NCBI GenBank assembly: GCA_005887925.1
Contig: VBLP01000012.1
Coordinates: 1-34,959, forward strand
Source of the DNA: Deltaproteobacteria bacterium
GTDB taxonomy: Bacteria > Myxococcota_A > Polyangia > Haliangiales > Haliangiaceae
DNA length: 34,959 nucleotides
Reading direction: 5' to 3'
Part shown: one piece after another, positions 4,617-16,625 of the stretch
Position numbering within the stretch: the first letter of the stretch is position 1
Layout of the letters: the number at the start of each line of letters is the position of its first letter
The notes under the pieces: model-generated
Databases searched by the model: none
Seen by the model: the letters and a program-made list of their open reading frames with translations, nothing else
Told to the model about the DNA's origin: nothing
Position numbers and translations under genes: made by a program

Positions 4617-5507
4617 CTAGCCCTTCAGGTTCTTCTTGAAGAAGTCCATCGTGCGCTTCCAGGCCTGCGTGGCGGCGGCCTTGTCGTAGCGCGGCGTGGT
4701 GTCGTTGTTGAAGCCGTGCTGGGTGCCGTCGTACTTGAACAGCTGGTACTTGACCTTGTTGGCCTTGAGCGCTTCCTCGAACGCGGGGATGCCGGCGTTG
4801 ATCCGGTCGTCCTTGTCGGCGTAGTTGATCAGCATCGGCGCCTTGATCTTGGCGACGTCCTCGGCCTTGGGCTGGGCGCCGTAGAACGGCACCGCCGCGG
4901 CGACCTCGGGGATGGCGACGGCGAGCTTGTTGGTCATGCCGCCACCCCAGCAGAACCCGACCACGCCGATCTTGCCGGTGCAGTCCGGGCGGCTCTTGAG
5001 GAACGCGAACGCGGCGATGAAGTCCTCGCGCGCCTTGTCCTGATCGAGCTTGCCGAACGCCTCGCGCGCCTTGTCCTCGTCGCCGGGATAGCCGCCGGAC
5101 ACGGTGAGCGCGTCGGGGGCGAACGCGTCGTAACCCTCGAGCGCGATCCGGCGCGCGATGTCCTCGATGTGCGGGTTGAGGCCGCGGTTCTCGTGGATCA
5201 CGAGCACGCCGGGCTGCGTGCCCTTGGCCGACGCGGACCGCGCGAAGTTGCCCTCGACCTTGCCGGTGCCCTCGGGCGAGTCGAACGCGAGCGTGCTGGT
5301 GGTCAGCCGCTTGTCGTCCTTGGGGACCTGCTGGGCCTCGGCGAACCTCGGGTTGAGCGTGTCGAGCAGCATCAACGCGGTCACGCCGCCGACCGCGAAC
5401 TTCGCGGCGCGCTCGAGGAAGCCGCGGCGATCGATGTCGCCGTGGACGTACTTGTCGAACAGATTCAGGAGTTCCTGATCGAAGTCGCTCGCCTGCTTGC
5501 GCTCCAT
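4617..5507 (-). CDS. Dienelactone hydrolase family protein with Tat signal
   Basis: A 296-residue alpha/beta hydrolase. The start ATG 5507 has GGAGG five bases upstream. Residues 26-60 look like a twin-arginine export signal: RRGFLERAAKF followed by a hydrophobic stretch and an AEAQQ cleavage-like site. The hydrolase core has HENRGL (residues 105-110), the nucleophile motif GFCWGGG with C186, an acidic residue in ADKDDRIN (D234 probable) and H264 in GTQHGFNND. This is the Cys-Asp-His triad of the DLH family, whose members open lactone rings or hydrolyse related esters. The substrate cannot be told from sequence. It stands alone, between the vapBC operator and the terminator of the signalling operon. 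Confidence 0.9.
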   Translation of the reverse strand: MERKQASDFDQELLNLFDKYVHGDIDRRGFLERAAKFAVGGVTALMLLDTLNPRFAEAQQVPKDDKRLTTSTLAFDSPEGTGKVEGNFARSASAKGTQPGVLVIHENRGLNPHIEDIARRIALEGYDAFAPDALTVSGGYPGDEDKAREAFGKLDQDKAREDFIAAFAFLKSRPDCTGKIGVVGFCWGGGMTNKLAVAIPEVAAAVPFYGAQPKAEDVAKIKAPMLINYADKDDRINAGIPAFEEALKANKVKYQLFKYDGTQHGFNNDTTPRYDKAAATQAWKRTMDFFKKNLKG

Positions 5508-5510
5508 GGG

Positions 5511-5534
5511 GTACCTCCGGTGGCGCGCAGCATA
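5511..5534 (-). promoter_or_regulatory. Promoter -10 and Shine-Dalgarno of the DLH gene
   Basis: TATGCT on the minus strand (5534-5529) followed by a short leader with GGAGG ahead of ATG 5507. Unlike many genes here, this transcript has room for a normal leader with a strong ribosome binding site. Confidence 0.45.
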
Positions 5535-5581
5535 TCTGCGAGGCGGCGGCGACGAAACCAGCCGTGGATCCGGAGTGCTGT

Positions 5582-5602
5582 CGTCGGCGCGGTGCGCCGA
5601 CG
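5582..5602 (-). terminator. Hairpin terminator after the signalling operon
   Basis: A perfect nine-base-pair stem (CGTCGGCGC / GCGCCGACG) with a three-base loop, lying 34 bases beyond the stop of the beta-helix gene and before the DLH promoter. No T tract follows, as is common in very GC-rich genomes. Confidence 0.55.
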
Positions 5603-5635
5603 GCCCGGACCGGGCGTCCGGCAGGAGGGCGAATA

Positions 5636-7303
5636 TTACGGTGTGTGAATCGGAGCGCCGCCTTCGTCCGGCTTGAGCACGATCAGGACATCGCCCCACA
5701 TGTATCGGCTGTCCGACGGTGCACGCTCGATCGGGAGCGCGAGTTTCTCGGCGAGAGGTACCGCGATCGGATAGGCGGCGTCGTCGTCGGACGGCACCAG
5801 GATCTTCGAGGGCGGAGGCACCGGATCCGTCTCGTCCTCGGACATCAGCAAGCCCGGCATGCCCAGTCGTTGCAGCCCGTCGTGGCGCACCTTGTCGGTG
5901 TTGGACAGGATGTGGATCTGCGGGCCGAGCAGGCGGGTCCAGAACCGCGCGACGAGCTTGTCGTCGTGGCGATCGAGCGTGACCACCACGGCACGGCGAT
6001 GGCTCGGGGAGGCGTAGACCGTTATCGCGGTCGTTCCGCCTCTCCTCGGGCTGTAGCGCATCAATCGCCACGGCGAATCATCGACATACAGGAGCGAGCT
6101 GCCGGCGTCGCCTTCGCGACATGCCTCGGGCGCGACCTGCGTTCCGCCGGTGTCCCAGGTGAGCTCGACCTGCTGCCCGATCGATCGGACCCCGGTGAGG
6201 AAATGACCAGCCGATGGCTGCTCGCACCATCGCACATGGAGCCGCGACGGCGCGAGCACGCTGCTGGGCTGGAAGCCTTCCGTCGGGAGCGAGCGCGCCG
6301 CATGCTCCGGCCATCTCGGCTCATCCGAGACGATGCGCACTCCCGGGCCGGAGAGATCCTGCCAGTGGAGGACTTTCTCGCTCGGTGCATCGATCACGGC
6401 GCGCACGCGCCATCGCGCCGGACCCGAGGCATCGCGGCCGTAGCTGAGGTCGAGGGCAAAGGCTTCCTCATCCGGGCTCCAGCTCACGACTTCGACGTTC
6501 GTACGCAGCGCCCTGGTCAGCTCGATCTCGTCGACGGTCGGTATCTGGGGAACGGTCGCCCGGGTGCCCGCCGACGGCGGGTCCAGTGACGGGGCTGCGT
6601 CACGGGGCTTCGATCTCACCGCGAGGAACATCAGGAAGCCGAACACGGCGATCATGGCGATCGCTGCGGCGACGTACCCGGGATGGACCTCACCGCCTCG
6701 CATCGCGCCGCTCGCACCCGGTGTCGCCGGTGCAGCCGTGCGTGCCGACTGTGAGCTGGGGATCGACGGAGGCGCCGGCGGCTGGGTCTGCGCCCGGGGC
6801 GGAGGCGGTGGCTGGGTCTGCGGCCGGGGCGGAGGCGGCGGCTGGGTCTGCGCCCGGGGCGGTGGTGGCGGCGGCGGTTGCGTGGGCGCACGGCGGGCAG
6901 GATCCGGTACAGCGGGAGCCGGCACGGGCGGCGTCGGCTCGCGGAGCCGGATGATCGCCGGCGCAGCGAAGCTCAGCAGCGGACTGTCGACGCGGATCTC
7001 ACCGCGCCGGATCGTCACATTGTGCTGCGCCAGCTCGCAGCCGGCGCCGATCAGGATCGCCGGATGCTGCAGGTCTCCGGTCATCTCGATCTGGAGGTCG
7101 TGCAGCTCGACACCGGAGCGCCGGATGATCAGGACCGGACCGCTGCCGTTTCCGAGCCAGGTGCCCGGGCCCCGGCCGGCGATCACGAGCGGCTTGTCGA
7201 TCACCACCTGGCCGACCATCTCCCCGGTGTCGAGCTCGATCCGATCGCCGGGCTTTGCTGTGGCGATCGCGCGGGCCAGGTCCTTGGGCAGGGTCCGCGC
7301 CAT
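5636..7303 (-). CDS. Beta-helix / Pro-rich / single-TM protein of the kinase operon
   Basis: A 555-residue protein I cannot assign to a named family. Residues 1-120 resemble right-handed beta-helix (pectate-lyase/CASH-like) rungs: KPGDRIELDTGE, VVIDKPLVIAGRGPGTW, then short beta repeats. There is no signal peptide. Residues 123-180 are Pro-rich with ten-residue repeats (RAQTQPPPPP). Residues 209-229 form one transmembrane helix, and about 325 residues follow. With an N-in topology the beta-helix would be cytosolic beside the kinase and the C-terminal domain periplasmic; the reverse cannot be excluded. The ATG lies one base after the kinase stop codon (TGACATG), so translation is surely coupled. 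Plausible roles are kinase substrate or transmembrane sensor/effector; this is inference. Confidence 0.82.
   Translation of the reverse strand: MARTLPKDLARAIATAKPGDRIELDTGEMVGQVVIDKPLVIAGRGPGTWLGNGSGPVLIIRRSGVELHDLQIEMTGDLQHPAILIGAGCELAQHNVTIRRGEIRVDSPLLSFAAPAIIRLREPTPPVPAPAVPDPARRAPTQPPPPPPPRAQTQPPPPPRPQTQPPPPPRAQTQPPAPPSIPSSQSARTAAPATPGASGAMRGGEVHPGYVAAAIAMIAVFGFLMFLAVRSKPRDAAPSLDPPSAGTRATVPQIPTVDEIELTRALRTNVEVVSWSPDEEAFALDLSYGRDASGPARWRVRAVIDAPSEKVLHWQDLSGPGVRIVSDEPRWPEHAARSLPTEGFQPSSVLAPSRLHVRWCEQPSAGHFLTGVRSIGQQVELTWDTGGTQVAPEACREGDAGSSLLYVDDSPWRLMRYSPRRGGTTAITVYASPSHRRAVVVTLDRHDDKLVARFWTRLLGPQIHILSNTDKVRHDGLQRLGMPGLLMSEDETDPVPPPSKILVPSDDDAAYPIAVPLAEKLALPIERAPSDSRYMWGDVLIVLKPDEGGAPIHTP
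6781..6870 (-). repeat. Three 30-bp tandem repeats (Pro-rich linker)
   Basis: Units 6781-6810, 6811-6840 and 6841-6870 are near-identical and in register. They encode ten-residue blocks of the RAQTQPPPPP type in the beta-helix/TM protein. Third-position differences between units show they are not a very recent duplication. Confidence 0.9.
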
Positions 7304-7304
7304 G

Positions 7305-8666
7305 TCAGAGGTCGAACCTGCTCACGATGATCGCGCGGCCGCGCGGCGGTGCCGCGAGCAGCAGGGTGAGCCCGTCGTGGAGTGCCACCGAGTCACCGGC
7401 CGGGATGACGCGATGTTCGCGACCATCGCGGATCACGCGTAGCTCGGCGAGCTCGTGATTGCGCAACCGCCAGACGCCGTTATCGTGCTCGACCTCGGCG
7501 ATCGGCCGCGCGTTCATCGACGTCGCCGCCGCGATTCCTTTCGCGGTGTGCCAGGGATAGATCCGGCGACCCTCCGTGCCGGCGATCCACCAGTGCGGCT
7601 CGGGCTCGTAGCGATGGTCACCGATGCCTTGATAGAGGTGCAGCACCGGCGTTCGCTTGCGCAGCTTCAGCGGGGTACGGCACCACGGGCAGATCGGTGC
7701 GACACCATCCGAGAGGGGCAGGAACCCCTCGGGGCAGCGCTTGCTCGAGCACGCCACGACGCGATCGGTGAGCCGTACGAGCGCGTGGACCCATTCACCC
7801 GCGGGTGGCCGGGCACCGGGGGAGCGCAGGCCGGCGACGAATGCGCGGCTGAACATCTCCATCAGCTGCGGCCCCAGGAGCCGCGTCGGCCAGAATCCGG
7901 CCCACTCCTCGCTCACCGGCCGGTTCGAAGCGTCGCTCGGATGATCGACGAACAGGCCGTCGGGGCCGAGCGCGACGAGATCGTCCTCGGCCGGATCGGG
8001 CGAGCAGACCCGCGGGCCGCGCAACGGGTGGCGGTACAGGAGGAGCTGATAGATCAGCACGGCGAGCGAGTGCAGATCGGTCGTGCTGCTCGGCCGCGCC
8101 TGCTTCACCAGCAGCTCCGGCGCGATGTACTCCGGCGTCCCGAGCACCTGCGGAGGCACGACGCCGGGCACGACCAGCCCGTCGATGTCGATCAGCGTGA
8201 CCCGACCGGTGAGCGGATCGACCCAGATATTGCGCGGCGACAGATCCGAGTGCGCGAGGCCGCTGCCGTGGAGACGGGTCACCGCCGACGCGATCGCGGA
8301 CGCGATCACCACGCGCGACCGCCACGATCGCCAGGATGGCGGCCGCGACGCCAGCGCCTTGAGGAAGATCAACCAGCTGAGCTCGTGGAAGCCGTCCGCG
8401 ACCAGCGGCAGGCGAACGCCCAGCGTCGGCTCGACGACGATCGCGTCGGGCCAGCGATACAGCTCGCTCCACTCCGTGCCGTCCGCGATGCGCCGGTAAT
8501 CGCCGACGATCAGAGGCAACGCCTTCTCGAGCTCCGGGGTCGGATGGTGGAACAGCTTGACCACGCTGCGCCCATCGGTGGTGCGGAAGACGCGCCCCAC
8601 GCCGCCCTGGCCGAGCGGCCTGGGCTCGCAGGTCACGAACGTGCCGTCCTGGAGCTTCACCCGCAT
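7305..8666 (-). CDS. YegI-like Ser/Thr protein kinase with zinc ribbon and FHA-like tail
   Basis: A 453-residue kinase. Visible motifs are the glycine loop GQGGVGRV (19-26), K37 in VVKLF, the catalytic loop HSDLSPRN (H139-N146; Ser replaces Arg of HRD), LIDIDG in place of DFG (D160), and GTPEYIAPE in the activation segment (176-184). DxD-type metal loops are usual in this branch. Residues 306-329 hold four Cys (C306, C311, C326, C329, the last pair as CPWC), a zinc ribbon like that described for kinases of TerY-PP2C-kinase triads. The last 60 residues look like an FHA-type beta sandwich (VWRLRNHELAELRV, IPAGDSVALHDGLTLLL). The ATG lies within the 10-base overlap with the phosphatase gene. The start is set by the conserved reading MRVKLQDGTFV. 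Soluble, no TM helix. Confidence 0.92.
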   Translation of the reverse strand: MRVKLQDGTFVTCEPRPLGQGGVGRVFRTTDGRSVVKLFHHPTPELEKALPLIVGDYRRIADGTEWSELYRWPDAIVVEPTLGVRLPLVADGFHELSWLIFLKALASRPPSWRSWRSRVVIASAIASAVTRLHGSGLAHSDLSPRNIWVDPLTGRVTLIDIDGLVVPGVVPPQVLGTPEYIAPELLVKQARPSSTTDLHSLAVLIYQLLLYRHPLRGPRVCSPDPAEDDLVALGPDGLFVDHPSDASNRPVSEEWAGFWPTRLLGPQLMEMFSRAFVAGLRSPGARPPAGEWVHALVRLTDRVVACSSKRCPEGFLPLSDGVAPICPWCRTPLKLRKRTPVLHLYQGIGDHRYEPEPHWWIAGTEGRRIYPWHTAKGIAAATSMNARPIAEVEHDNGVWRLRNHELAELRVIRDGREHRVIPAGDSVALHDGLTLLLAAPPRGRAIIVSRFDL

Positions 8667-9508
8667 GACGGTCCGCTGCAGCGCCAGGCAACCACGAGCG
8701 TGCGGTCGTCGAACGAGCCGTGCTTCTCGTACGACAGGATCTCGCCGAGCCGGGCGCCGGCATCTGCCAGCGCCGCCATCTGGTCGAGCTCGCCGGCAAG
8801 GATCGGCCCGTTCTCCGACCACGGGATCAGGTCGTCGGCGAGACCGTCGGTGGCGACGAACAGTCCGCGCGGCGGTGACGCGGGCTCCTCGCATCGGATC
8901 CGCGCATCCCAGCCGTGATCGTCGAGGCTCTCGAGGAACAGCGTGGCGCCGGGCACCTCGTCATCGGCCTGCGCGAGCGGCATGATCGCGCCGTGGTCGT
9001 CGATCGCCGCGATCAGGCCGTCGCCGACCTGGAACGTCGCCAGCGACATGTGCGGGCCGTCGATCGCGCAGGCGAGGCAGAGCAGCGTGCACGACAGATC
9101 CGCGACGCCCACGCCGTGGTGCCGTGCGCGATCGGCCTGCGCTGTGCGTGCGATCGACACCGCGGCGGCGATCGCGCCGCGCAACGACACGCCGGCCGCC
9201 AGGACCTCGGCAGCGCGCTGCGCCGCTGCAGCGGTCGCCGCGTCGGCGCCGTGCCGCGATAGCGCGCGCGAGCCGGCACCATCCGCCACCGCGGCGAACC
9301 ACCAGGTGCGACTGCCGTCGTGGCCGACGACGATGCTGTACGCGTCGTCGCACGGCCGCTGCTGGTACACGTGACCGCGCCCGACGATGCTCGCTGCCGC
9401 GACGCGGTATCCCGCGACGACCGAATGGTCGCTCGTCGCGACCGGCCGGATCGCGTCGGGTGCCGGCGGCGCAGGCGCAGATCGGATGTCGAACTCGTCG
9501 AGCCCCAT
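8657..9508 (-). CDS. PP2C-type protein phosphatase (YegK-like)
   Basis: A 283-residue PP2C-family phosphatase expected to reverse the neighbouring kinase. Metal-binding motifs are all present: QQRPCDDAYSIV (D55), VADGAGS (D76, G77), VGDG (D163), ATDGLADD (D221) and FDDRTL (D267, D268). The CDDA form of the first motif and DGAGS of the second match the compact PP2C group found in TerY-type triads rather than the classic PrpC/Stp group. It starts 10 bases after the VWA stop codon and ends overlapping the kinase start by 10 bases. Cytosolic; no regulatory domain is fused to it. Confidence 0.92.
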   Translation of the reverse strand: MGLDEFDIRSAPAPPAPDAIRPVATSDHSVVAGYRVAAASIVGRGHVYQQRPCDDAYSIVVGHDGSRTWWFAAVADGAGSRALSRHGADAATAAAAQRAAEVLAAGVSLRGAIAAAVSIARTAQADRARHHGVGVADLSCTLLCLACAIDGPHMSLATFQVGDGLIAAIDDHGAIMPLAQADDEVPGATLFLESLDDHGWDARIRCEEPASPPRGLFVATDGLADDLIPWSENGPILAGELDQMAALADAGARLGEILSYEKHGSFDDRTLVVAWRCSGPSCG

Positions 9509-9518
9509 GCCGCACCCG

Positions 9519-10247
9519 CTAGAGCACCACCCGGATGCCCTGAGGCGGCGGTGGCAGATCGGCGAACGTCGACTGCACGCCCTGCGCGGCGTGCTGGCTG
9601 ACCGCCCGGCTCGCGGTTCGCACCGACTGGCTGATCCAGTCGAACAGCGACGCGATCGTGTCGGGCGTCATGTCCGGCATCAGCATGACGGTCTTGGTGA
9701 GCTCGCTAAGCGTATCGATCGCGACACCCGGGCCACAGCCGATCGCGATCAGCGTGCTCTTCCACCTGGCGGCGGCGGCGCGGTAGCGCGCGAGTCCGGG
9801 CTGCCAGTCGTCGGTTGGCTGCCCGTCGGTCATCAGGAAGACCAGCGGTCGCCAGTCTCCCACGTACTCGGGCGTGCGCGGGCGCGTGTCGCGCTCCAGC
9901 GCGTCGGCGAGCAGCTCGAGCGCGGCGCCGAGCGCCGTGCCGCCCTCGGCGGTGAGCACCGGCGGGGCAAAGCTCCCCGCCTCGACCAGGCTGGTCAGCT
10001 CGTGCGCCTTGCTAGCGAACGTGAGGATGCTGATCGCGGCGCATTCGAGCGCGTGAGGATCGAGCCGGAGCGCCGCCTCGAAGTTCTTCAAGCCGGTAGT
10101 GACGGCCTCGATCGGCGCACCATGCATCGACGCGGAAGTGTCGACGACGAGATAGATCGGAAGCCGCCGACTGGTCCCTACGAGTCTCACCAGATACCCC
10201 CGAGTGATCCATCCTGGAGCATACGGCGGCGCGGTCCGGAAGTCCAT
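9519..10247 (-). CDS. VWA-domain protein (YegL/TerY-like)
   Basis: A 242-residue protein consisting almost wholly of one von Willebrand A domain. The MIDAS metal site is complete: DTSAS (D36, S38, S40), GGTALG with T104, and MTDGQPTD with D141. TerY/YegL-type proteins of this size accompany PP2C and kinase genes, and that is the order seen here. It is the first gene of the minus-strand operon. The start is uncertain: ATG 10247 leaves only 30 bases to the divergent FHA gene and has no clear Shine-Dalgarno. GTG 10190 has GGGGG seven bases upstream and a TATGCT box further up; it would shorten the protein by 19 residues without touching the MIDAS site. Confidence 0.92.
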   Translation of the reverse strand: MDFRTAPPYAPGWITRGYLVRLVGTSRRLPIYLVVDTSASMHGAPIEAVTTGLKNFEAALRLDPHALECAAISILTFASKAHELTSLVEAGSFAPPVLTAEGGTALGAALELLADALERDTRPRTPEYVGDWRPLVFLMTDGQPTDDWQPGLARYRAAAARWKSTLIAIGCGPGVAIDTLSELTKTVMLMPDMTPDTIASLFDWISQSVRTASRAVSQHAAQGVQSTFADLPPPPQGIRVVL

Positions 10248-10277
10248 CGGCCGCGACAGCTGATACTGTGGAGCTGC
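10191..10277. promoter_or_regulatory. Divergent control region of the phospho-signalling locus
   Basis: This stretch separates the VWA and FHA genes if the VWA protein starts at 10190, or partly codes for it if ATG 10247 is used. For the FHA gene, TACTGT lies at 10264-10269, eight bases from its ATG, with GGAG (10270-10273) between. For the VWA gene, TATGCT on the minus strand lies near 10220 and GGGGG just before GTG 10190. Both units must be driven from here, so they are probably co-regulated. Confidence 0.45.
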
Positions 10278-11699
10278 ATGCCTGCGAGACTCGAATGGGA
10301 GCGCAACGGAAAACGCAACCTGTTGACGATCGTCAAGCAGGAGGTGGTGATCGGACGCGACGCGGGCTGTCAGGTGCGCGGCGATACCGCCGATCTGTCC
10401 GCCCGGCACTGCCGCATCCTGCACGACGGCACGCAGTTCGTCGCCGAGCACGTCTCCGGGGCTGCCACGCTGCTCAACGGCGTCCCGATCACGCGTCACG
10501 GGCTCGAGAGCGGCGACGTGATCGAGTGCGGCAGCCTCACGGTGCGGTTCCACGAGGACAGGCGCGCCCGGCCCCGGCCGGCACCGGCCCAGGCGGTGGT
10601 GCCGCCCGCTGCCCAGCCGCCCGCTGCCCAGCCGCCCGCTGCCGTGCCATCACCACTGCCGTCAACCGCGGCACCTGCACCGTCACCACCGCCCTCACCG
10701 GTACCCGCGCCGCCGCCTGCGCCGGATCCGGCGGAGCTGCCACAGCTGCGGGCAGAGCTGGTGCGGGCGAGGGAGGACCGCGACCGCGACCGCGACGAGG
10801 CGATTCGCCTGCGCGCGAAGCTCGACCAGCGCGCCGACGACCTGCGCCGCGCCGAGGGCGAGCTCGGCCGCACCCGGAAGGAGCTCGACCAGGCGAGCGC
10901 CAGCCTGACGGCGGCGCACGACGAGCTCCGGGTCCGCGACGAGCAGCTCATGGAGAAGGAGCGGCTGATCGCGGTGCTCCACGGACAGCTCGACGACCGC
11001 GAGCGGCAGCTCCGCGACAAGGACCGGGAGCTCGACTCGCAGACGAGCGAGCTGCAGAGGCTCGAGGCGCGGGCCCGCGAGCTGTTCGATGCCAACCAGG
11101 GCCTCCGCGCCGAGGTCGCGCGGGCCCGCGAGCAGTCCAGGGCGCTCGAGGCCAGGCACGATTACCTCGCGCGAGACAGCGCGCGGCTCCAGAACAACCT
11201 GAGCAAGCTCACCAGCACGCTGGCCGAGTACCAGCAGTCGGTGCAGTCCCTCGAGAACCAGGTCAGGGAGCTCCAGGTCCTGCGCGATCGACACGCGCAG
11301 GTGATCGAGTCACAGCAGGAGGAGATCCAGGCGCTGGGAGGAGCGCGCAACCGCGTCCAGGTCCTGCTCGATGACCTCCAGCGGAGGCATCACCACCTCG
11401 ACATGAGCCACGAGATCGTCAAGGCCGAGAATGCCAAGCTGGCGCCCGAGAACGCGAGGCTGAGCGCGGAGGCGGGCCGGCTTCAGCTCGAGATCCAGCG
11501 CATGCTGCGCGACCGCATCCCCGACGGCTCGCTGCAGGACGCGCTGATCGAGATCGAGGCACTCCGCAAGGAGCTCGCGGAGGCACAGCGCGCGCTCGGC
11601 CGATCGATCGTCGATCGCGAGCTGTTCGATCGCCTGCGCGCGCTCGCCGAGTCGCACGCGCGGGATCTGCCGATCGGATCGCGATCGCAGCAGCCGTGA
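10278..11699 (+). CDS. FHA-domain coiled-coil protein
   Basis: A 473-residue protein with three parts. Residues 5-92 form an FHA domain with the phosphothreonine-binding signatures IGR (R27), SARH (S41, H44) and LNG (N67, G68). Residues 97-155 are Pro/Ala-rich with a repeated PPAAQ unit. Residues 155-465 are an almost unbroken heptad-type coiled coil (RDRDRDEAIRL, LRDKDRELDSQ, LQNNLSKLTSTLAEYQQS). There is no signal peptide or TM helix, so it is cytosolic and probably a long dimeric rod. FHA domains bind phosphothreonine, so the likely ligand is the divergent kinase or its substrate. ATG 10278 has GGAG four bases upstream. It is convergent with the lipoprotein gene beyond the hairpin at 11707. 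Confidence 0.92.
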   Translation: MPARLEWERNGKRNLLTIVKQEVVIGRDAGCQVRGDTADLSARHCRILHDGTQFVAEHVSGAATLLNGVPITRHGLESGDVIECGSLTVRFHEDRRARPRPAPAQAVVPPAAQPPAAQPPAAVPSPLPSTAAPAPSPPPSPVPAPPPAPDPAELPQLRAELVRAREDRDRDRDEAIRLRAKLDQRADDLRRAEGELGRTRKELDQASASLTAAHDELRVRDEQLMEKERLIAVLHGQLDDRERQLRDKDRELDSQTSELQRLEARARELFDANQGLRAEVARAREQSRALEARHDYLARDSARLQNNLSKLTSTLAEYQQSVQSLENQVRELQVLRDRHAQVIESQQEEIQALGGARNRVQVLLDDLQRRHHHLDMSHEIVKAENAKLAPENARLSAEAGRLQLEIQRMLRDRIPDGSLQDALIEIEALRKELAEAQRALGRSIVDRELFDRLRALAESHARDLPIGSRSQQP

Positions 11700-11706
11700 C
11701 GGGAGA

Positions 11707-11728
11707 GCTCGGCCGCGGCCGGCCGAGC
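11707..11728. terminator. Bidirectional hairpin between convergent genes
   Basis: Perfect eight-base-pair inverted repeat GCTCGGCC / GGCCGAGC with a six-base GCGGCC loop, in the 43-base gap between the FHA gene stop (11699) and the lipoprotein gene stop (11743). It suits both strands. No T tract is present. Confidence 0.55.
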
Positions 11729-11742
11729 CGGGTCAGACGCCG

Positions 11743-12828
11743 CTACCAGGTGATCTTGGCGTAGCCGTTGCCGGTGACCGCGCCGGCGGTGTTGGACGGA
11801 TTCATCCCGGCGTTGAGCGAGCCGCCGCCGCCGCAGCCGACCCAGGCGCTGGCGGTGTCGCCGCACGAGCCGCCCGAGTAGCCGCCGCCGCCGCCCTCGC
11901 CGAACCCGCCGGTGCGGCCGCCGCCGCCGCCGTAGCCACCGCTGGCCTCGGTGCCGCCGCCGGTGCCGCCCAGGTTGTAGCCCGCGCCGCCGCCGGGGCC
12001 GCCGCCGCTCGCCAGGAAGCCGCCGCCGGCGCCGCTCTGGCTACCCGCGACGGAGTTGCCGCCGGCGCCGTTGTCGACGCGCGCCGAGGCGCCTGCGGTG
12101 CCGCCCGAGGTCACGCTGCGTCCGACGCTCTCGGCGGGCACGATGGTGCCCGCGAAGTTCGAGCCGCCGCCGCCGGCGATCACCAGCGGCTTGTTGCCGG
12201 GCCCGATCACGAAGGTGCCGCCGCCGCCGGACAGGCGTTGCTGGCCGCTGCTCAGGCCGGCCTGCTGGCCCACGAGGATCCGCAGCGTGCTGTGCGGGAA
12301 CACGTCGACGGTGCCGATGATCTTGGCGCCGAAGGTGGCGCCCATCGTCCCGGTGAATCCGCCTTCGGCGCCGCCGGCCTCGATGGTGATCCGGCAGACG
12401 GACGGGGGCACGATGAACTCCTGCGCGGTGCCGTTCGGCGGGCTGCCATTGGCCGCGAACATCGCCATCCCGCCGGTGGCGCACGGCGGGATCATCACGG
12501 CCGGGGCGCTGACGGTCACGGTCTCGACGCCATCGGTGGCAGTGACAGTGCACTCGTAGTTGACGCCGGGCGCGACATCGACAGCCGGGACGGTGTCATT
12601 GGCAAACATCGTGGTGGTCGGCGTACCGGTATAGGCCATGCCATCGCGCTGCCAGGACGCGGAGTAGGTGATCGGACCGCTGCCGCCCATGGCAGGCGTC
12701 GTGATCACACAGGTCAGATCGGTCCTGGGAGCCGGTGCCGGGGAGATGTCGACGACCGGCTCGCCGAGATGGAGGACCTCCCCGCAGGCAGTGACCGACA
12801 GCAACAACAAGATCCAGCGAGAAGCCAT
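11743..12828 (-). CDS. Glycine-rich exported lipoprotein
   Basis: A 361-residue protein. Residues 1-15 are a lipoprotein signal ending at the lipobox VTAC (C15). Residues 30-115 look like an Ig-like beta domain (TDLTCVITTPAMGGSG, YECTVTATDG). From about 130 on, EFIVPPSVCRITIEAGGAEGG and later GGGG blocks (AGGGGSNF, GGYGGGGGRTGG) match the Gly-rich fold seen in ALK/LTK-type glycine-rich domains and in many bacterial surface proteins. The end reads GNGYAKITW. It probably sits on the outer membrane; its partner is unknown. There is no Shine-Dalgarno; TACGAT lies six bases before ATG 12828, so the mRNA is probably leaderless. An in-frame reading from 12858 exists but would place the signal sequence internally. 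Confidence 0.85.
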   Translation of the reverse strand: MASRWILLLLSVTACGEVLHLGEPVVDISPAPAPRTDLTCVITTPAMGGSGPITYSASWQRDGMAYTGTPTTTMFANDTVPAVDVAPGVNYECTVTATDGVETVTVSAPAVMIPPCATGGMAMFAANGSPPNGTAQEFIVPPSVCRITIEAGGAEGGFTGTMGATFGAKIIGTVDVFPHSTLRILVGQQAGLSSGQQRLSGGGGTFVIGPGNKPLVIAGGGGSNFAGTIVPAESVGRSVTSGGTAGASARVDNGAGGNSVAGSQSGAGGGFLASGGGPGGGAGYNLGGTGGGTEASGGYGGGGGRTGGFGEGGGGGYSGGSCGDTASAWVGCGGGGSLNAGMNPSNTAGAVTGNGYAKITW

Positions 12829-12834
12829 GCGCCC

Positions 12835-12840
12835 ATCGTA
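12835..12840 (-). promoter_or_regulatory. -10 box TACGAT, leaderless start of the Gly-rich lipoprotein
   Basis: TACGAT-N6-ATG on the minus strand, with no ribosome binding site between. The same arrangement recurs before several other genes in the window, and the bases around this start (TACGATGG then CGCATGGC) closely match those before the kinase gene at 16484. Confidence 0.55.
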
Positions 12841-12897
12841 ACATGGGGGGATCGCCATCCGGCGCGCCGGAATCGACGCGGATGCGATCGATGCGCC

Positions 12898-13181: not shown

Positions 13182-16484
<3,303 letters not shown>

Positions 16485-16489
16485 GCGCC

Positions 16490-16495
16490 ATCGTA
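16490..16495 (-). promoter_or_regulatory. -10 box TACGAT of the kinase-propeller gene
   Basis: TACGAT-N5-ATG on the minus strand; no Shine-Dalgarno. It lies in the 175-base divergent gap shared with the MaoC-like gene, which holds nothing else recognisable. Confidence 0.5.
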
Positions 16496-16625
16496 GCCTG
16501 GTGGTCATGCCGCGACCTCACGCGTGCGTGCATGGCCAACGCGCGTGCGCCGGTGAACATTCGCGGCGATCCGCCGCCGACCTCACGTCGTACGTCCGGT
16601 ATCGGGTTCCGGCGGCCGGAGCCCC

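Follow-up and report, generated by a model that had tools for sequence, protein, structure and literature searches.

A TerY-P-type phospho-signalling triad with a candidate membrane-attached beta-helix partner in a Haliangiaceae genome

We have analysed a 34,959-nucleotide stretch of DNA from a bacterium of the family Haliangiaceae (called the window below), which is contig C153 of a draft assembly of 12.2 Mb in 778 contigs that is 81% complete. The window carries a phospho-signalling locus of five genes, three of which encode a VWA protein, a PP2C-family phosphatase and a Ser/Thr kinase. To judge from their sequences, these three constitute a TerY-P triad. A fourth gene, directly following the kinase, encodes a beta-helix protein with a single transmembrane (TM) helix, and this protein seems to be a genuine partner of the triad. 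The reading that we favour, at slightly under an even chance, is that the locus is a TerY-P switch that is related to those of ter operons yet located outside a tellurite cluster, and that is attached to the cell envelope through the beta-helix/TM protein.

The triad and its gene layout

TerY-P triads, which usually sit among the genes of tellurite-resistance (ter) operons, occur also in CoCoNuT systems (Anantharaman et al. 2012, as cited in PMC11090510). According to the part of PMC11090510 considered here, each combines a TerY-like VWA protein with a PP2C-like enzyme and with a Ser/Thr kinase that is C-terminally fused to a zinc ribbon. The assignment of the window triad to this type is made because all three of these parts are found. 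The metal-ion-dependent adhesion site (MIDAS) of the VWA protein, DTSAS...T...D, is complete, with D17, S19, S21, T85 and D122 invariant in all six aligned VWAs, and the PP2C protein keeps the metal-site aspartates in its alignment. The kinase has the beta3 lysine (Lys37), the catalytic-loop sequence HSDLSPRN and a DxD motif, Lys37 and Asp141 both being intact. Its four cysteines C306, C311, C326 and C329 (7680–7751, minus strand), which are invariant in all eight aligned kinases, form a predicted zinc ribbon. No TM segment is seen in the kinase by hydropathy. That the locus contains a triad of TerY-P type had been proposed in an earlier note on this DNA, and the proposal is borne out by the Pfam domains, the alignments of the three proteins and the zinc-ribbon cysteines.

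Four genes lie on the minus strand in the order VWA, PP2C, kinase and beta-helix/TM, almost unspaced. They encode the TerY-like VWA protein (9519–10190), the PP2C-family phosphatase (8657–9508, 283 amino acids), the TerY-P-type kinase (7305–8666, 453 amino acids) and the beta-helix/TM protein (5636–7303, 555 amino acids). The VWA and PP2C genes are separated by 10 bases, the PP2C and kinase genes overlap by 10 bases, and the stop of the kinase is only one base from the start of the beta-helix gene. This tight spacing of four co-directional genes speaks for the favoured reading. The fifth gene, on the opposite strand (10278–11699, plus strand, 473 amino acids), encodes an FHA domain followed by a proline-rich linker and a coiled-coil rod. 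The earlier note had given these five genes, their packing and the divergent orientation of the FHA gene; all five open reading frames (ORFs) are present at the positions given there, and Pfam recognises the kinase (Pkinase, 2.8e-13), the phosphatase (PP2C_2, 4e-30), the VWA domain (8e-9) and the FHA domain (1.3e-8). The one correction concerns the start of the VWA gene, which is probably GTG at 10190 rather than ATG at 10247, because the aligned relatives (L085, L086 and L091) start at or just before the motif RRLPIY, because tblastn aligns the nearest relative from residue 20 onwards when the longer reading is used, and because the sequence GGGGGT sits five bases upstream of the GTG. With this start, 87 bases (10191–10277) separate the divergent VWA and FHA starts. 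A search of 5400–11900 for consensus promoters and terminators gave none, which says little at a G+C content of 72%.

The beta-helix/TM protein as a candidate partner of the kinase

The beta-helix/TM protein begins with a short predicted beta-helix domain (residues 1–118; 6950–7303, minus strand) that has no N-terminal hydrophobic segment. In the translation, this domain is followed by a proline-rich linker (residues 122–200; 6704–6940, minus strand). Next come the single TM segment predicted by hydropathy (residues 206–233; 6605–6688, minus strand; helix 208–230 in the structure model) and a C-terminal domain of about 316 residues (240–555; 5639–6586, minus strand) that was absent from the account in the earlier note. 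Pfam gives nothing for the protein up to E 0.1; a match to NosD over residues 9–99 (1.3e-9) scores 37 bits, far under the cut-off of 300. The structure model of the N-terminus consists of short, regularly spaced strands, with a predicted local distance difference test (pLDDT) score of about 75 over residues 11–100.

A search with the N-terminal beta-helix in 289 genomes of the class gave a single close match besides itself (E 1.5e-11), on contig C65 of genome G112. It should be pointed out that these genome searches had an upper limit on the candidates scored in each genome (17 for the kinase, 9 for the VWA and the C-terminal domain, 15 for the beta-helix, 21 for FHA and 5 for the two-row profile used below), so that absences are soft. 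The same contig, from another family of the class, holds the nearest other triad (L033), whose VWA, PP2C and kinase are 52%, 42% and 49% identical to those of the window. The beta-helix gene lies there upstream of the VWA gene and ends 18 bases before its start. The N-terminal beta-helix domains of the two proteins are 35% identical and both lead into proline-rich stretches; the L033 protein is larger, with a full right-handed beta-helix (Pfam Beta_helix, 5.7e-57). A contig of a deltaproteobacterial metagenome-assembled genome (MAG; L085) contains L033 in reverse, with matching length and gene content. A beta-helix gene thus accompanies both triads, at opposite ends of the operon, and because the nearest other triad also has a homologous beta-helix gene adjoining it, the beta-helix protein appears to go with the triad in the window too. 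The other 14 beta-helix matches, with E values from 9.3e-8 to 9.7e-4, were treated as generic, since none of their stretches (L069–L082) has a VWA match; a kinase is present in some of these stretches, an FHA domain in two and a PP2C in one.

For the C-terminal domain, a single-sequence search of 240 genomes of the class gave one more copy (E 1.3e-26), and a two-row profile run against 377 genomes of the phylum gave two clear copies, the window's own included, and a marginal one with an internal stop (E 8.2e-4). Among 72,556 plasmid records, none matches the domain. The other clear copy, in a different genus of the same family (G019, locus L095), is the C-terminal part of a Ser/Thr kinase of 1030 amino acids (Pkinase, 4.7e-42), in which a hydrophobic segment (689–714) stands directly ahead of the domain and another is found at 127–149. 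The two copies are 30% identical over 298 residues (E 1e-26), and each has two cysteines, at near-identical places. In both proteins, then, the same type of domain follows a TM helix; they differ in that the L095 kinase is covalently attached, and in that no VWA or PP2C match is found in the 19 kb of its locus. Since the domain stands behind a kinase and a TM helix in L095, and is specified here by a gene that lies one base away from that of a soluble kinase, the comparison suggests that the two window proteins work together. It points to the beta-helix/TM protein as the kinase's sensor or anchor rather than its substrate.

As for topology, docking, phosphorylation and output, we infer a mechanism in which the beta-helix/TM protein provides the input, so that this protein and the kinase would together behave as a split receptor kinase. 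The C-terminal domain of the beta-helix/TM protein would lie outside the membrane, one helix would cross it, and the proline-rich linker would present the short beta-helix in the cytosol, where it could dock the soluble kinase, the VWA protein or both. The VWA protein would act as a metal-dependent adaptor via its metal site, the kinase would phosphorylate itself and its partners, and the PP2C protein would reset the switch. A more specific version, which we hold only tentatively and consider somewhat unlikely, is that a TerY-P switch has become such a split receptor by means of an envelope-sensing domain that in another genome is covalently part of a TM Ser/Thr kinase, and that here sits on a separate protein whose cytosolic beta-helix recruits the TerY-P kinase. 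We found no description of a membrane-input TerY-P triad of this kind in the literature covered, which comprised titles and the openings of abstracts, with most subscription journals outside its scope. The TerY-P system as such has been described, as a hypothesis, as a metal-sensing phosphorylation switch (PMC11090510, part considered here).

A related organisation, which serves as a precedent, is found in E. coli, where according to the part of PMC13232886 considered here the kinase YegI and the PP2C protein PphC (YegK) are encoded by neighbouring genes, with yegL in the same locus, and PphC dephosphorylates YegI. YegI is described in that paper as itself membrane bound, whereas the window kinase has its membrane part on a separate protein. 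The two systems are likened here by organisation and not by sequence.

Several observations weigh against the envelope-attached TerY-P switch. The positive charges C-terminal of the TM helix (RSKPRD) oppose an N-in/C-out orientation by the positive-inside rule, and the structure predicted for this protein is unusable beyond about residue 240. The single other clear copy of the C-terminal domain is in G019, a genome listed without a match to the window VWA. The partnership of the beta-helix protein with the triad rests on two loci only, and no beta-helix gene is found in the stretches of the proteobacterial triads L086, L087 and L091, which have the next-nearest kinases. Finally, the L033 beta-helix protein has no TM helix, which means that membrane attachment is not common to both loci. 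This last point, together with the larger size and the long beta-helix repeats of the L033/L085 homologue, would fit a different role for the protein, namely that of an intracellular scaffold or substrate of the triad, for which the TM helix and the C-terminal domain would be a lineage-specific tether with no part in sensing. We regard this role as unlikely, as the 316-residue C-terminal domain is common to a TM kinase and occupies there the usual position of a receptor.

Related triads and the kinase group

At E 1e-5, VWA matches are present at 29 places in 25 of the 289 genomes of the class, own genome included; the 15 same-genus genomes listed have none. A second triad in the window's genome was ruled out, as it has a single VWA match at this threshold. 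Of the 28 places that lie outside the window, 22 were covered by long stretches (3.3 to 19.5 kb each), the other six having E values of 7.8e-7 or weaker. With local profile models, the full triad is found at 18 of these 22 loci, VWA and PP2C at one, which is on a 3.3-kb contig, and VWA and kinase at three. In the latter (L042, L043 and L050), the VWA gene adjoins the kinase gene and no PP2C is recognised by the local profile. A beta-helix gene stands beside the VWA gene at one of the 22 loci, L033.

When genome contigs were scanned with the alignment of the kinases, eight loci (L085–L092) came out. L086, from a Chromatiales MAG, has TerD-type genes followed by three VWA genes, PP2C and kinase, and in our own reading of the sequence TerB-like and TerC-like ORFs also precede the VWA genes; L087 and L091 are proteobacterial triads. 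At L088, L089, L090 and L092 (Halobeggiatoa, Thiotrichales and Thioploca) the kinase is alone, with no VWA or PP2C match in 8.8 to 21.3 kb, and the kinase ORF of L092 is short (245 amino acids). Among 95 relatives, the kinase search gave matches in the own genome, G083 and G036. On plasmids, 2324 of the 72,556 records match the kinase at E 1e-15, and 2277 match the VWA at E 1e-8; the window VWA is 43.6–44.4% identical to the plasmid VWAs (15 plasmid rows among the matches listed). The single plasmid record that was inspected, pPNAP04, has VWA, TerD, VWA, a TerY-C protein, PP2C and kinase within a ter cluster.

In a FastTree phylogeny of the kinase domains, one group (support 0.97) unites the kinases of the window and L033 with the ter-type kinases, away from the other triads of the class. 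In the VWA tree, the window protein pairs with L085/L033 (0.997), among the ter-type VWAs (0.76–0.89). Both trees are midpoint rooted, so that their branching order is provisional. The window triad thus shares with the TerY-P triads of ter operons and CoCoNuT systems the three parts in the same order, and its kinase and VWA group with ter-operon members. It differs from them in having a single VWA gene, no TerY-C among the five genes and no match to TerD (PF02342) in a draft assembly that is 81% complete. It also adds the beta-helix/TM gene and the divergent FHA gene, and its kinase retains the beta3 lysine.

This lysine is absent in all seven ter-type kinases that were inspected (L086–L091 and L149; e.g. 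L086:9992-11485 and L087:2739-4271), which have A, L, C or G instead. All seven have a lysine in the glycine-rich loop (for instance GGLKDVY, GGMKDMY, GATKQAY or GAMKDVY), an arrangement that resembles that of the eukaryotic WNK kinases. In the window and L033 kinases, the lysine is at its usual place.

The window kinase ends in a beta-strand domain (7308–7655, minus strand) that is possibly FHA-like by profile comparison and structure model. A local hhalign comparison with FHA gave a probability of 46%, while six other profiles reached at most 2.8% and the best of 30 column shuffles 2.5%; the global profile alignment gave 3.6%, and a Pfam scan of eight kinases lists no FHA. The structure model has numerous short strands in the region after the zinc ribbon. 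The domain at this position in the window and L085–L091 kinases may be a degenerate FHA domain. A Foldseek search with the kinase model is uninformative on this point, the best 50 of 1999 matches all being protein kinases. An antiphage assignment of the kinase was rejected, because the PADLOC matches listed (PD-T4-6, mad6 and others) are confined to residues 107–228, the generic catalytic core.

The divergent FHA gene and the remaining alternatives

The FHA domain of the window rod has matches (E 1e-5) in 173 of 240 genomes of the class. Among 19 non-self FHA loci, which are a part of these many matches, 11 have an FHA domain, a linker that is rich in proline and glycine or acidic, and a coiled coil. 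Five have other layouts, and three have a matching start and then run off the edge of the locus. Ten of the 11 rods are in genomes outside the 25 with a VWA match (the VWA-negative genomes are not all named), and the eleventh, in G026, is on a different contig from the VWA match of that genome. The window protein has the layout of this widespread rod, its FHA domain ending in a CGSL-type strand that leads into the linker and a long coiled coil. The window's genome also holds another copy on contig C626, with 42% and 58% identity to the G010 rod. Because this copy resembles the common rod more closely, the window rod is, as far as sequence comparison tells, a divergent extra paralogue of the widespread family. 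The C626 copy (11263-12322; L107, L124) is split across two overlapping frames in the draft.

The phosphothreonine-binding loops of FHA domains carry the motifs GR, SxxH and NG(T). In an 80-row alignment, the window domain retains the G, R, S and H positions and has AA in place of NG, the N being present in 71 and the G in 78 of the rows, which include its own row and some duplicate loci. FHA domains are moreover abundant in the window's genome (109 stretches), and a single FHA neighbour is therefore weak evidence of function. No FHA gene is found near any of the 22 VWA loci of the class or the three proteobacterial triads (L086, L087 and L091) within the stretches examined.

The link of the FHA rod to the triad is thus weak. 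The divergent rod may serve as an output scaffold, which would be the weakest link of the proposed mechanism. The earlier note had instead included it as a fixed fifth part, in a circuit where phosphorylation by the kinase, of itself or of the TM protein, provides a phosphothreonine for docking of the FHA rod, and the PP2C protein resets the circuit. The position of the divergent gene, 87 bases off, is in line with such a circuit, and so is the phosphorylation-dependent binding of the FHA and vWA proteins ArnA and ArnB in Sulfolobus acidocaldarius (PMC6509490, part considered here). The latter system likewise pairs FHA and vWA proteins in phospho-signalling; it differs in being archaeal, and the part of the paper considered mentions neither an operon of PP2C and zinc-ribbon kinase nor a beta-helix protein. 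Against the circuit stand the many rods of like layout without a triad, the lack of an FHA gene at 25 other triad-type loci, the AA in place of NG and the abundance of FHA domains in the genome, and we consider it improbable. The survey of gene neighbours at these loci, within the stretches examined, leads us to reject the five-part unit as a conserved system, and it separates the two outer proteins: the FHA family is regularly found without the triad, whereas the one close relative of the beta-helix gene that was found adjoins one, which favours the inclusion of the latter gene by the earlier note. The putative four-part unit, that is, the triad with its beta-helix partner, has support from the second locus.

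In type VI secretion, PpkA, PppA and Fha1 are the kinase, PP2C and FHA proteins that write, erase and read threonine phosphorylation. The window differs in the weak FHA link, and the three flanking proteins that were scanned with Pfam are not secretion proteins. Downstream of the operon by 128 bases, on the same strand, is a dienelactone hydrolase family protein with a YqhI-like N-terminus (4617–5507, minus strand). On the other side are a glycine-rich protein with, in our own reading, a lipoprotein-like start, for which Pfam gives nothing up to E 0.01 (11743–12858, minus strand), and, 1.5 kb past the FHA gene, a second Ser/Thr kinase (Pkinase, 7.4e-31) with a hydrophobic segment and a long C-terminal part (13182–16508, minus strand). 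CoCoNuT-associated TerY-P triads are characterised by McrBC-type cnu genes in the operon; the flanking genes to which Pfam assigns a family here are those of the dienelactone hydrolase and of the second kinase.

An accidental neighbourhood, in which a horizontally acquired TerY-P triad has come to lie next to signalling genes that have no connection with it, in a genome with many kinases and FHA proteins, would agree with the patchy occurrence of the VWA and the lack of a TerD match, but it is highly improbable, as chance hardly explains a homologous beta-helix gene at the other end of the nearest triad, or the one-base spacing between the kinase and beta-helix genes.

If the locus is indeed a TerY-P switch attached to the envelope, its candidate envelope domain, common to a TM kinase, would offer a concrete handle on what TerY-P senses and on whether this domain drives the kinase. 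The window locus also permits the two forms of this kinase group, with and without the usual lysine, to be compared.

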